From Halieaceae bacterium (GTDB taxonomy: Bacteria > Pseudomonadota > Gammaproteobacteria > Pseudomonadales > Halieaceae): a stretch of 44,884 bases of DNA. The DNA lies in contig JANQIO010000020.1 in the NCBI GenBank assembly GCA_028282105.1, forward strand, positions 1-44,884, in the 5' to 3' direction. Positions 2,676 to 12,495 of this stretch are shown one piece after another (the stretch's first letter is position 1; each line of letters opens with the position of its first letter). Under the pieces are notes generated by a model. It was not told the origin of the DNA. It saw only the letters and a program-made list of their open reading frames with translations, and ran no database searches. The translations under genes were made by a program, and so were the position numbers.

Positions 2676-4244
2676 TCAGGGTGCGTGCGACGATACCGCC
2701 TGTGGGGCGTTGGCAACCTTAAGAGACCTGGCCTCAACAGCGGACTGTCGTGCGCGGCTGGATACCAGGTAGGCCAGGACCAGCGAGCCGCTTGCAGCAA
2801 TGACAGCGTTTACTGTGAACGCTGCCTCGCTCTGCAAGGCGTAGGGCGCGGTGGCAATATCCAGTAGCGGCATGCCCAGGCAAAGCACTGCGGTAGCCGA
2901 CATGAGTCGTCGCGAGGTGCGACGGGTGTTTCCAAAAACCAGAGCCACAGCGATTGCCAGGCCCCAACTGGCGAGGAATGCCAGCGCCGTGGTGTAGCCG
3001 CGGTCATCGCTATGCATACCCCAAAGGCGGTCGGCATAGAAGACTGTCACAGAGGCTAAGGCCACGCCGGTGGTAATGCCGGCGTTTAGGCGGCTGATCG
3101 CCAGGTAGAAGCCGGCACTGCGGCGTCCCAATGGCCCATTGACTCGCCTTTCCAGGTAGATCAGCGTGCCCACGACTATCGAGATGCTCACCAGCAGGCC
3201 CGCAAAGTAGTACACCACCTTCAGCAAGGCGCCGCCGTAGGTCCCGTAATGCAGGGGCGTTACCGCTGCGTATACGCGGCCTATCGCAGACTCCGGCAGG
3301 GCGCCGAATAGCAGTGATGGCTCGCCGAATTCGCCGGTGACGGCATTGGCGTCAACCTGCACAAAACGCACGAGTTCCCGGTCAGTATCCGCGAATACCT
3401 TGTAGCGCGCGTTGGCGTCACCGTAATTTTCAAGGCCGACACGGCTGGCACGGTAGGGTGTGTCTCGATTGATGCGGGTCAGCACGTCGTCCAACGGGGC
3501 CATGGTGGCCACAATGCCGGCCGGTTCCGGAGGTGGTCCAATCACCGCCTCGATGGCGCGGTCCTGATCACCCTTGAAAGCGACCAGGGCGAGTATCGGC
3601 AGGAACAACACCACCAGCCCTAGAATAGCTCCGGTAAAAGCGATGGTAATGCTAAAGGGTAGGGTCCAGACGCCGAGGCCGGTATGAAGGTCTTTCCACT
3701 TGAGGTGAGAGGAGCGGTGCCAGCGGATTTTGTACAGGTCGCGCAGTATCTTGCGGTGGATGATCACGCCGGTCAGTAGTGACAGCAGCATAAAGACACC
3801 GGCAATACCCACCAGCGAGCGGCCCAGTCGTCTTTCTATCTGTAGATTCTGGTGAAAGCGCAGCAGCCACAGGGCGGGTCCGTCCTCGGCTTCCAGCACG
3901 GCTGTGCCACCTGTCGCCGCAAAGCGCTGGGTGACAAATTCGTTGCCTTCATCCCTGTGAACGCTTCCCGACAGCGTGTAGAAAGGCCGTGCCTTGTCGG
4001 GGAGCATCAGAAACAGGTTGTCGACGTGCCCGCCGTGGCTGGCGACAAAAGCGTCTATCAGCGGATTGATCGCCGGCGGCTTTTCCGGCAGCGGGGAGCG
4101 CAGGGAGGGGTTTTCCCAACCCTGCATCTCTTCGTACAGCATGGCCACCGAACCTGAGAAACACACCACAAACAGCAGCCAGCCCAGTACCAGGCCAACC
4201 ACCGTGTGCAGGTGGTTGATGCGCTTTAGCCGGTCCCGTTGCAT
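2676..4244 (-). CDS. PepSY-associated TM helix protein (iron-uptake linked)
   Basis: This 522-residue integral membrane protein belongs to the PepSY-TM family. The first membrane helix lies near residues 13-36 (HTVVGLVLGWLLFVVCFSGS), followed by a large periplasmic portion. Further helices occur near residues 145-165, 195-225, 335-360 and 380-490. Family members are common in Fur-regulated siderophore loci and several are proposed to act as ferric-siderophore reductases. That role is family knowledge, not shown here. Its start shares one base with the stop of the small gene upstream (TGATG), so translation is probably coupled. The three-gene unit is divergent from the TonB receptor across the Fur box. 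Confidence 0.88.
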   Translation of the reverse strand: MQRDRLKRINHLHTVVGLVLGWLLFVVCFSGSVAMLYEEMQGWENPSLRSPLPEKPPAINPLIDAFVASHGGHVDNLFLMLPDKARPFYTLSGSVHRDEGNEFVTQRFAATGGTAVLEAEDGPALWLLRFHQNLQIERRLGRSLVGIAGVFMLLSLLTGVIIHRKILRDLYKIRWHRSSHLKWKDLHTGLGVWTLPFSITIAFTGAILGLVVLFLPILALVAFKGDQDRAIEAVIGPPPEPAGIVATMAPLDDVLTRINRDTPYRASRVGLENYGDANARYKVFADTDRELVRFVQVDANAVTGEFGEPSLLFGALPESAIGRVYAAVTPLHYGTYGGALLKVVYYFAGLLVSISIVVGTLIYLERRVNGPLGRRSAGFYLAISRLNAGITTGVALASVTVFYADRLWGMHSDDRGYTTALAFLASWGLAIAVALVFGNTRRTSRRLMSATAVLCLGMPLLDIATAPYALQSEAAFTVNAVIAASGSLVLAYLVSSRARQSAVEARSLKVANAPQAVSSHAP

Positions 4245-8760: not shown

Positions 8761-9465
8761 ATGTTGTTTCAAGCGCGGATGTACCAGACGGAAGGGCAGG
8801 CGGCGAATGCGGCCGACGCACTGATCGAAGCTGGTTTTTCCAAAAACAGTGTCACTCGTTACACCCCACCTGGCGCCGCCGGTGGTGATATGGGCGGTGC
8901 GCCCGCCGCCGGGCCGGCCAGCGATTCTGCAGCCGCGCTGCGGGTGGGCGGTATCCTCGGTGAGCACGCCGGCTACTATGCCGATCACGTCAACAAGGGT
9001 TACAGCCTGGTGGCGGTGCAGCCCCCGTTTGGCACCATGTTGAAGGCCGAGGCAATTCTCGACGCCCACAACCCGCTGCCGCTGTCGCATATGCCGCCTC
9101 CGGAGCCCTTTGTGCCCTGGACCGAGCGCCCGGCAGCGTTTTCTTCCCTGTTCGGCTGGCCGACACTGACGCGCAGTGAAACCCCGTTTTCGGATTTCTG
9201 GGGGCTGAGCACCAAGCAGGATGGCCTGTGCCACTTCTCTCGGTGGTTCAAGCCGCTGAGCGATGGCCTGCGGATGGGTAGTAATCCGCTCACAGCCAAT
9301 GCCACGCCGCTGTCATCCATGGTTGGCATGGGCACCAAGAGTGGCCGCAATGAAGGTAAGACCGGGTCCTTTGGTATGTCGTTCAAGACGAAAGGCGCCA
9401 CGCCGTTTTCGTCCATGTTCGGTATGCCGATTCTCACCAAGCGCAAGCATTTCCTGACGTCCTGA
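8761..9465 (+). CDS. Unrecognised 234-aa protein with repeated P-F/L-S-S motif
   Basis: I do not recognise this gene. Residues 1-105 look like one small alpha/beta domain (ARMYQTEGQAANAADALIEA, later GYSLVAVQP and a helix), reminiscent of the stress-protein 17M/DUF1269 kind, with a Gly/Ala/Pro-rich linker at 36-60. Residues 120-226 carry about five copies of a P-[FL]-S-[SD]-x-x-G-type motif, near residues 124-137, 141-151, 165-178, 182-192 and 214-226 (for example TPFSSMFGMPILT). No signal peptide or membrane helix is obvious. GGAGG lies 6 bases before the ATG. A strong terminator follows, so it is transcribed apart from the puc operon. The role is unknown. Confidence 0.85.
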   Translation: MLFQARMYQTEGQAANAADALIEAGFSKNSVTRYTPPGAAGGDMGGAPAAGPASDSAAALRVGGILGEHAGYYADHVNKGYSLVAVQPPFGTMLKAEAILDAHNPLPLSHMPPPEPFVPWTERPAAFSSLFGWPTLTRSETPFSDFWGLSTKQDGLCHFSRWFKPLSDGLRMGSNPLTANATPLSSMVGMGTKSGRNEGKTGSFGMSFKTKGATPFSSMFGMPILTKRKHFLTS

Positions 9466-9836: not shown

Positions 9837-9980
9837 ATGAATAACGGCAAAATCTGGTGCATCGTCAATCCCACTATCGGCATTCCGCTGTTTCTGGGTG
9901 GTGTAGCACTTATTTCTTTCACCGTACATTTCGCCATTCTTGAGAACACCACCTGGTTCCCCGCCTTCTTTGGCGGCTGA
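9837..9980 (+). CDS. pucA: LH2 light-harvesting complex alpha subunit, Phe44-Phe45 type
   Basis: This 47-residue alpha polypeptide of LH2 opens with [17 protein letters not shown], which aligns with the R. acidophilus LH2 alpha N-terminus, where the modified Met1 ligates B800. His31 in [12 protein letters not shown] is the B850 ligand. The C-terminus reads WFPAFFGG, so positions 44 and 45 are both Phe, where B850 complexes have Tyr-Trp or Tyr-Tyr. Those residues hydrogen-bond to the B850 acetyl groups, and their loss gives blue-shifted antennae (B800-820 type). The C-terminal extension after this point is almost absent. AAGGAG lies 6 bases before the ATG. Confidence 0.95.
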
Positions 9981-10019
9981 TCCAGGCGGGCAAGATACCG
10001 CGAAAAGGGATAGTTCTTC

Positions 10020-10039
10020 GGGGCGGCAGCCGCCGCCCC
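10020..10039 (+). terminator. Intercistronic hairpin between pucA and pucC
   Basis: GGGGCGG (10020-10026) and CCGCCCC (10033-10039) form a 7-bp G+C stem with a 6-base loop, 39 bases after the pucA stop. There is no T-run. In other purple bacteria a hairpin after pucBA stabilises the abundant antenna mRNA or attenuates read-through into pucC. The same role is inferred here. Confidence 0.55.
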
Positions 10040-10074
10040 AAGGCTATTCTTCCTAATTCTGCGGCGAGGTGGGT

Positions 10075-11511
10075 ATGAGCCGGCTGCGACTCAAACTACT
10101 GCATACGTGGGCAACGCTGAGCCCGCGCTTTCTCCCCTTTGCTGATATTGTCACCCCGGACCTGCCGCTGAGCAGGCTGTTCCGGCTGTCCCTGTTCCAG
10201 GTGTCTGTGGGTATGGCGCTGGTGCTGTTGGTGGGCACGCTCAACCGGGTGATGATTGTTGAACTCAATGTGTCCGCCGCCCTGGTGGGCCTCATGCTGG
10301 CCATGCCGCTGGTGTTTGCGCCTTTGCGCGCCCTGATCGGCTTCCGTTCGGATCATCACCAGAGCGCACTGGGCTGGCGTCGTGTACCGTTTATCTGGAA
10401 GGGGTCCCTGGCCCAATTCTCCGGCTTTGCGCTGATGCCTTTCGCGCTACTGGTGCTGGCCAAACAGGGCGAGTCGGGCAATATCGCGCCCTGGGTAGGG
10501 CAGTTCACCGCCGCCGTGTCTTTCCTGCTGGTCGGGGCAGGGGTGCACACCGTGCAGACCGCCGGTCTGGCGCTTGCCACCGACCTCACGCCGTCTGAAT
10601 CACACCCGCGGGTGGTGGGCCTGATGTACGTTTCCCTGCTGCTGGGCATGATTGTCAGCGCGCTGCTGTTCGGCGCCCTGCTGGTGGACTTCAGCCCGGG
10701 CCGCCTGGTGCGAGTGATCCAGTCAGCGGCAATTGCCACCATGGTGCTGAACGTGGTGGCCGTCTGGAAACAGGAGCCACGCCGCCCCGAGCGCGGTGTG
10801 CTGGCGCCGCGACCGGACCCGTCGTTCCGCGACGCCTGGGCCAAGTTCTGCGAGGGCGAGCACACAATCCGCCGGCTGGCGATTGTCGGCCTCGGTACCA
10901 TGGCGTTTGGTATGGCGGATATTCTGCTGGAACCCTTCGGCGGCCATGTGCTCAATCTCACGGTGAGCGCCACCACCTTGCTGACGGCGCTGTTTGCCGC
11001 CGGCGGCTTACTGGGCTTTGGCCTGGCCTCCAAGGTGATCGCTGCGGGCGCCGAATCCTACGTTATCGCCCGCCGCGGCGCGCTGATTGGTGTGCCTGCC
11101 TTCCTGCTGGTCATCGCCGCCGCGCCGCTACAGCAACCGCTGTTGTTTGTGATCGGCAATTTCCTGATTGGATTCGGCGGCGCCCTGTTCGGGCACGGCA
11201 CTTTGACCGCTACCATGAATCTGGCGCCGCGCGCGCAGGTCGGGCTGGCCCTGGGCGCCTGGGGCGCAGTGCAGGCCACGGCGGCCGGTGTCGGCATGGG
11301 GCTCAGCGGTGCCATTCGCGATATCGTCAATGCCGTGGAAGCGGCGGTCAGCCCGCTGGCAGCCGGTTCTGCAAGCGCTACGGGGTATCTTGCGGTCTAC
11401 GGCATCGAGGTGGGTCTGCTGCTGGTTACCATACTGGTGACCGCCCCGTTGGTACGCCAGGCGCTGGTCGAGCGTCGGCCTGAACCCACTGCCCCGGAAG
11501 CCGTGGCCTAG
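10075..11511 (+). CDS. pucC: PucC-type LH2 assembly factor (MFS/BCH2 family)
   Basis: This 478-residue, 12-helix membrane protein of the PucC/LhaA branch of the major facilitator superfamily is needed for LH2 assembly, probably by delivering pigment or shaping the nascent ring. The family pattern is clear in LPLSRLFRLSLFQVSVGMA, LNRVMIVEL, FAPLRALIGFRSDHH and GWRRVPFIWKGSL. A position directly behind pucBA favours PucC over its LH1 homologue LhaA. The ATG at 10075 follows GAGG by 5 bases; an in-frame GTG at 10069 is a poorer choice. The deformylase gene begins only 4 bases after the stop. Confidence 0.93.
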   Translation: MSRLRLKLLHTWATLSPRFLPFADIVTPDLPLSRLFRLSLFQVSVGMALVLLVGTLNRVMIVELNVSAALVGLMLAMPLVFAPLRALIGFRSDHHQSALGWRRVPFIWKGSLAQFSGFALMPFALLVLAKQGESGNIAPWVGQFTAAVSFLLVGAGVHTVQTAGLALATDLTPSESHPRVVGLMYVSLLLGMIVSALLFGALLVDFSPGRLVRVIQSAAIATMVLNVVAVWKQEPRRPERGVLAPRPDPSFRDAWAKFCEGEHTIRRLAIVGLGTMAFGMADILLEPFGGHVLNLTVSATTLLTALFAAGGLLGFGLASKVIAAGAESYVIARRGALIGVPAFLLVIAAAPLQQPLLFVIGNFLIGFGGALFGHGTLTATMNLAPRAQVGLALGAWGAVQATAAGVGMGLSGAIRDIVNAVEAAVSPLAAGSASATGYLAVYGIEVGLLLVTILVTAPLVRQALVERRPEPTAPEAVA

Positions 11512-11515
11512 GCCG

Positions 11516-12028
11516 GTGGCGGTGCTCGACATTATTGAATACCCCGACGAGGTCCTGAGGCAGGTCTCGCGGCCAGTCAAGGTGTTCGACAGCGCCCTTG
11601 AGGGCCTGGTTGAGGACCTGTTCGAAACGCTGGAATACAGCGCCGCCATCGGCCTGTCAGCGCCACAGGCCGGCGTCCTCGAGCAGGTGCTGGTGGTGCA
11701 CGTGCCCGGCGACGACTACGGACCCCAGGTGTACATCAATCCAGAGATTCTCAGCACCGCCCGGCTCGGCATCGTCGAGGAAAGTTGCCTTTCGGTGCCG
11801 GGCATCGTCGGCAATGTCATGCGTCCCACCCAGGTGCATGTGCGGGCGCGGGATGTCAGCGGCCAACTCTTCGAGCGCGCCCTGGATGGCATGCACGCGG
11901 TAGCCCTGCAGCACGAGATGGATCATCTCGACGGCGTGCTGTTTGTCGACAAGCTGTCCTGGTTCCGCAAACTGCGCCTCAAGTGGGCGGCGAGTCGCGC
12001 CGCTCGCGAGGCAGTGGCGGCCGGTTAG
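11516..12028 (+). CDS. def: Peptide deformylase paralogue linked to puc operon
   Basis: This 170-residue metalloenzyme removes the formyl group from N-terminal Met of nascent proteins. All three deformylase motifs are present: IGLSAPQ (45-51), ESCLS (89-93, Cys91 as metal ligand) and HEMDH (133-137, two His ligands and catalytic Glu134). Two conserved glycines are changed: the first Gly of GxGLAAxQ is Ala44, and the Gly of EGCLS is Ser90. The start is GTG, 4 bases after pucC with no promoter between, so it is probably in the puc transcript. The housekeeping def usually sits beside fmt, which is absent here, so this is probably a second copy. Confidence 0.88.
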   Translation: MAVLDIIEYPDEVLRQVSRPVKVFDSALEGLVEDLFETLEYSAAIGLSAPQAGVLEQVLVVHVPGDDYGPQVYINPEILSTARLGIVEESCLSVPGIVGNVMRPTQVHVRARDVSGQLFERALDGMHAVALQHEMDHLDGVLFVDKLSWFRKLRLKWAASRAAREAVAAG

Positions 12029-12039
12029 CAGACCGCCGG

Positions 12040-12495
12040 CTAGCCCGGCACCTGTTCGCTGCGAAACCGGGCCAGCACATCCAATAGCTTCTTGGCCTCG
12101 CTGTTGGTCAACTTATCGCCGAAGGCGCTTTTCAGCGCTGTCGCGTACACCGGCCACATCTCAGCCTGCACCTGACGCCCCAGCGGACTGATTTCAATGA
12201 TCTGGCCGCGGCCGTCATCAGGATCCTTGCTGCGCGCAATCAGTCCTGCTCGCTCCATGCGATTCAGCAATCTCGACAGACCATACTGGGGCAGCAGAAT
12301 GCGGTTCTCCAGGTCCATGGGCCTGAGTCCCGGGTTCTCGGCGTTGCGCAGTTCCAGCAGCACGTCGTACCAGGTGAGCGGCGGATAGCCCGCATCTTTC
12401 AGGGCTTTCTCGATAAGTGTCAGCAAGGTTTTCTGTGAGCGTATCAGCTCGATCCAGGCTGAGATTTTTTTGTCGGGTATATGCGGTGCGTCCAT
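12040..12495 (-). CDS. MarR family transcriptional regulator
   Basis: This 151-residue protein has the MarR winged-helix layout: an N-terminal dimerisation helix (WIELIRSQKTLLTLIEKAL), LTWYDVLLELRN, a recognition region LPQYGLSRLLNRMERAGLI and the wing DPDDGRGQIIEISPLG. Such proteins usually bind palindromes as dimers and are released by small ligands. Its gene is divergent from the lipoprotein gene and convergent with def, 11 bases apart. The start ATG lies only 6 bases from a TATAAA -10 element, and there is no ribosome binding site, so the mRNA is probably leaderless. The ligand is unknown. Confidence 0.9.
   Translation of the reverse strand: MDAPHIPDKKISAWIELIRSQKTLLTLIEKALKDAGYPPLTWYDVLLELRNAENPGLRPMDLENRILLPQYGLSRLLNRMERAGLIARSKDPDDGRGQIIEISPLGRQVQAEMWPVYATALKSAFGDKLTNSEAKKLLDVLARFRSEQVPG

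Follow-up and report, generated by a model that had tools for sequence, protein, structure and literature searches.

In published structures of the LH2 complex from Rba. sphaeroides and Rbl. acidophilus the B800 bacteriochlorophyll is ligated by the N-carboxylated Met1 of the alpha chain, and carboxy-Met1 has also been modelled in the LH2 of Rps. palustris (PMC8775250, PMC6358721, PMC9618040). PucA of Rba. sphaeroides is carboxylated in the cryo-EM structure, whereas Met1 N-carboxylation was not seen in this species by a mass-spectrometry study, in the account that the same paper gives of it; N-carboxylation of Thr2 of a beta chain has been reported there as well (PMC8775250). In Rps. palustris, LH2 also has a gamma chain, reported only from Rhodopseudomonas, whose repeats have Ser residues that each serve as ligand to an additional B800 (PMC9618040). 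Pseudohaliea rubra and Congregibacter litoralis have been reported to possess peripheral antennas that show an 800-nm band (PMC12654162).

The action of deformylase at the ribosome is seen to some extent from a chain length of 50 aa and peaks near 70 aa (PMC8712518); at 50 aa the enzyme has been called "relatively ineffective" (PMC5454389). SRP blocks the deformylation of membrane proteins, although those with N-in topology may still be deformylated later by the ordinary enzyme (PMC5454389), and deformylase can linger on nascent chains in an early chaperone role (PMC8712518). According to a recent survey, whose text mentions no photosynthesis operon, consensus deformylase motifs are poor guides to activity, and Vibrio Def2 is still active with Ser in place of Ala in motif I (PMC12690207). 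As the earlier note on this DNA had supposed, no report linking a deformylase to a puc operon was found in the open-access literature that was searched.

The puc operon of the window

The window, a stretch of 44,884 nucleotides from a Halieaceae bacterium, contains pucB, pucA and pucC in this order with matches to the light-harvesting families, which identifies an LH2 (puc) operon (Table 1). Only 4 bp separate the stop of pucC from the start of a deformylase gene (def), the final gene of the operon. The earlier note had described this layout, and it was confirmed by the ORF call, by a consensus scan that found no promoter-like site near the pucC-def junction, and by the convergent orientation of the next gene, of the marR type. 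The hairpin between pucA and pucC scored no better than shuffled sequences (z -1.26); at this position an mRNA-segment-stabilising hairpin is known in other puc operons. The translated PucA begins Met-Asn-Asn-Gly-Lys-Ile-Trp and thus has the B800-site residues Met1 and Asn3, and in PucB His22 and Arg30 coincide with B800-site positions of Rba. sphaeroides LH2, for which the roles of these residues have been described (PMC8775250).

Table 1. Features of the puc operon in the window and of its downstream border.
Feature	Position	Strand	Remarks
gene X, protein of 234 aa without a known family	8761..9465	+	upstream of pucB
pucB, LH2 beta chain, GTG start, 51 aa	9666..9821	+	LHC antenna family match
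pucA, LH2 alpha chain, 47 aa, without long C-terminal tail	9837..9980	+	LHC antenna family match
pucA-pucC intergenic hairpin, G+C-rich, a candidate for mRNA stabilisation or attenuation	10006..10051	+	
pucC, LH2 assembly protein, major facilitator type	10069..11511	+	PUCC match, 478 bits
def, puc-linked peptide deformylase, GTG start, 170 aa	11516..12028	+	
MarR-family regulator gene, convergent, outside the operon	12040..12495	-	marks operon end

The product of gene X consists of an N-terminal domain of about 95 aa and degenerate repeats of about 15 aa (PLSSMFGMxxLT; NPAPLSSMFGMPLLT), and homologues were found in most def-bearing LH2 operons (L082, L083, L091, L186, L194, L222 and others). 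A similar protein is encoded near pucC in the def-less operon L201 (strand -, 3000-3611), with weak matches in L197, L198, L199 and L202. Because such proteins are found near pucC in def-less Rhodobacteraceae-like genomes, gene X extends beyond the def-bearing class. Its layout resembles that of the Rps. palustris LH2 gamma chain (PMC9618040), a lead drawn from the layout. The window genome also has a PUCC-family match in two pieces (G000:C29:15574-16776; query 37-232 and 251-422), possibly a mere alignment gap in a divergent paralogue.

Occurrence and history of the pucC-def linkage

An LH2-type pucC (at least 64% identity) is carried by eight of the 140 Halieaceae genomes surveyed. Def follows pucC directly (0-10 bp) in all seven of the intact LH2 operons, whereas the eighth contig ends within pucC. 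The approximately 48 Halieaceae that have only an lhaA-type relative possess one def each, bar a few with an unrelated second match. When the seven Halieaceae puc-linked proteins were searched against 84,980 species genomes, the best matches were deformylases encoded behind pucBA-pucC, and nearly all the weaker ones belonged to def-fmt pairs. Carriers comprise Halieaceae, Competibacteraceae, Chromatiales, Steroidobacteraceae, Wenzhouxiangella and Alphaproteobacteria of several orders, together with MAGs assigned to Gemmatimonadota and Myxococcota, a placement that rests on MAG bins. Since isolates are among them (Pseudohaliea rubra DSM 19751 and strain NOR5-3), the linkage cannot be an artefact of MAGs. 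The adjacency from which the earlier note had started is therefore not due to chance, recurring as it does in 7/7 intact Halieaceae operons and widely beyond, and the same recurrence rules out a peculiarity of one genome.

As a scan with def selects for def, a second count started from pucC. In the window's pucC clade, def was present in 23/23 intact operons (7 from Halieaceae, 7 from the order of G431, 8 from the alphaproteobacterial sample and one from G1549), and it was absent from 49/49 LH2 operons outside this clade. The pucC genes of def-linked operons form one clade in the tree, with Halieaceae members in two separate parts of it, as horizontal movement of the operon would lead one to expect. 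The puc-linked deformylases also form one clade, which sits among gammaproteobacterial fmt-linked enzymes and has an SH-aLRT value of 100 in a tree of 149 rows. The simplest history suggested by these trees is a single recruitment of def, with no loss in the sample.

The window genome has exactly one other def, located beside fmt on contig C66, which rules out that the operon gene is the sole def of the organism. Where a canonical housekeeping Def (Def1) lies beside fmt and groups with the fmt-linked deformylases, the window def adjoins pucC and belongs to the puc-linked clade, which is set apart from the fmt-linked enzymes in a tree of 68 rows (UFBoot 100/SH-aLRT 99). At least one further deformylase match was found in each of the 21 puc-linked-def genomes checked, which span the groups. 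Conservation far beyond the window genome and the separate def-fmt pair support the proposal in the earlier note of a deformylase dedicated to LH2, as far as sequence comparison goes.

Properties of the encoded deformylase

Judged by its family scores, catalytic residues and predicted fold, the product of the window gene is a peptide deformylase. It scored 151 bits against Pfam Pep_deformylase (PF01327; cut-off 22.8) and 140.5 bits against TIGR00079 (cut-off 103.95). Its AlphaFold model (pLDDT 91.6) has a TM of about 0.88 to the E. coli and Pseudomonas deformylases, and the best 50 PDB matches listed were all peptide deformylases. The three motifs read AIGLSAPQ, ESCLS and QHEMDHL. The six positions for catalysis or metal binding are invariant in 41/41 puc-linked deformylases. 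They are occupied by Q, E, C, H, E and H, with Q51, C91, H133, E134 and H137 among them, and correspond to the motif-1 Gln, the catalytic Glu and the metal ligands (Cys of motif 2 and the HExxH of motif 3). An inactive decoy was rejected as unlikely because of this conservation. Values of dN/dS among the Halieaceae puc-linked copies (0.11-0.22, about 0.13) point to purifying selection.

The motif changes that the earlier note had singled out differ in their reach. Ser90, by which the window def departs from the strict motif-2 consensus (ESCLS instead of EGCLS), is typical of the clade without being universal (35 of 41 sequences), whereas Ala44 proved to be local variation, several Halieaceae puc-linked copies having Gly at that column. 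The puc-linked clade also differs from the housekeeping enzymes at positions 86, 89 and 125 (E. coli numbering), which we take to lie around the substrate pocket.

Length and N-terminus of PucA

PucA has 43-51 aa in all def-linked operons (n=40) and 54-133 aa in all unlinked operons (n=49), with no overlap between the two sets. Length and def linkage each change once on the pucC tree, and the correlation is therefore a single contrast that could result from shared ancestry alone. As the N-terminus MN[QN]GRIW is found in both linked and unlinked PucA, the difference between them lies in the C-terminal tail. Some unlinked PucA combine MNQGRIW or MNNGRIW with long tails, which rules out the N-terminal sequence alone as what decides linkage. 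Many of the unlinked PucA (L246-L289) have long C-terminal tails rich in Ala, Thr and Val, of up to about 85 extra residues. At locus L264, a Rba. sphaeroides-type PucA of 54 aa is encoded without a linked def.

Discussion

The explanation that we favor, and consider probable though far from assured, is that the operon encodes an active deformylase dedicated to LH2 assembly, which frees Met1 of the very short PucA for carboxylation. We know of no established route to the N-carboxylation of Met1 in the LH2 alpha chain. The deformylase would be made together with PucA, PucB and PucC, and would take the formyl group off the N-terminal Met of the short PucA, and perhaps of PucB too. This would leave a free alpha-amino group on a Met1 that is probably retained, since Met aminopeptidase acts poorly on Met-Asn, and N-carboxylation of this amine would then yield the carboxy-Met1 that ligates B800. 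On chemical grounds carboxylation needs a free amine, and hence prior deformylation. A membrane protein of 43-51 aa would be fully translated before the housekeeping deformylase on the ribosome begins to work efficiently, and SRP would hinder that enzyme on membrane proteins; given the limit of about 50 aa and the SRP block, the 47-aa PucA of the window is likely to be a poor substrate for the general enzyme. We thus infer that PucA is the substrate, that the housekeeping enzyme fails on it and that carboxylation occurs in these organisms.

Counted against this reading is the N-in topology of PucA, with which later deformylation by the ordinary enzyme would be possible (PMC5454389). A linked def is not generally required, because the 54-aa PucA of L264 lacks one and PucA of this Rba. 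sphaeroides type is carboxylated in the cryo-EM structure, nor do all LH2 complexes need it, as the 49 operons without def illustrate. The earlier note had named formyl-Met or carboxy-Met as the B800 ligand and had allowed that the deformylase might restrict the modification. Only the carboxylated form is borne out by the published LH2 structures and, as its formation needs a free amine, an enabling role is likelier than a restricting one.

The need could instead be one of capacity and not of specificity, an ordinary extra deformylase keeping up with the bulk of alpha, beta and other fMet chains. Few proteins are as abundant as the LH2 chains while these are being produced, the fold and catalytic residues are like those of an ordinary active deformylase, and def is co-directional with pucC and tightly packed behind it. 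We nevertheless regard this explanation as unlikely, although it deserves some weight: the 49 sampled operons outside the clade (Rhodobacteraceae-like and others) make LH2 without a linked def, the changes at positions 86, 89 and 125 (E. coli numbering) are specific to the clade and presumably surround the substrate pocket, and the location of def downstream of pucC means that it is probably not expressed at the level of pucBA.

The PucB of the window begins Met-Glu, an N-terminus that is not trimmed by Met aminopeptidase, and it is the length of PucA, not that of PucB, which separates linked from unlinked operons. Both observations make it doubtful that the enzyme acts mainly on other chains of the LH2 operon (PucB, PucC or the repeat protein X), whose deformylation would allow Met excision, even though PucB is also short (about 50-54 aa), many linked PucB start MATD, MTTE or MSDL (Met-Ala, Met-Thr, Met-Ser) and a beta chain of Rba. 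sphaeroides is reported to be N-carboxylated at Thr2 (PMC8775250). Quite improbable is hitchhiking, in which def joined the operon once by chance and then spread with it through horizontal transfer while having no LH2 role; the single origin on the tree agrees with it, but def is under purifying selection and was lost from none of the 23 intact operons over a deep divergence in which gene X changed position, and the further deformylase in 21/21 genomes means that the puc-linked def should be dispensable. Protection of formyl-Met on PucA by an inactive or competing deformylase, which the earlier note had also entertained, or a non-catalytic chaperone role on nascent chains, as the changes in AIGLSAPQ and ESCLS and the lingering of deformylase on such chains (PMC8712518) might suggest, is very improbable in view of the six invariant positions in 41/41 sequences, the dN/dS of about 0.13, the activity of Vibrio Def2 despite its motif I Ala-to-Ser change (PMC12690207) and the presence of carboxy-Met, not formyl-Met, in known LH2 structures.

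The dedicated deformylase may have a wider meaning, which we put forward tentatively: there might be a widespread class of LH2 operons with a substrate-specialised, post-translational deformylase as the first committed step towards N-carboxy-Met1, the need for which would be decided by a chain length of about 50 aa. Being fixed in the operon, the deformylase points to the step that precedes Met1 N-carboxylation, on which structural and mass-spectrometry evidence from Rba. sphaeroides conflict. If this is correct, the deformylase would serve one particular protein, in contrast to the view of these enzymes as general factors of translation, and gene content across bacteria would be tied to a kinetic limit (about 50 aa) that was measured on ribosomes of E. 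coli.

Comparison with known systems

The classical puc operons of Rhodobacteraceae share with the window the order pucB, pucA, pucC, but they have no def after pucC and their PucA is longer (54-133 aa in our sample). The puc-linked Def resembles the housekeeping type 1 Def of def-fmt pairs, such as those of E. coli and Pseudomonas, in fold, catalytic residues, length and the C-terminal helix of the model. It differs from it in its place after pucC and not beside fmt, in forming its own clade, in having ESCLS instead of EGCLS and usually LSAPQ in motif 1, and in the clade-specific residues in the area of the pocket. With the accessory deformylases (Vibrio Def2 and those of integrons and antibiotic clusters; PMC12690207) it has in common that it is a second, active-looking and horizontally spread enzyme with an Ala-to-Ser change in motif I. 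The accessory enzymes, however, are tied to inhibitor resistance and mobile cassettes (PMC12690207), whereas the puc-linked copy is fixed in LH2 operons.
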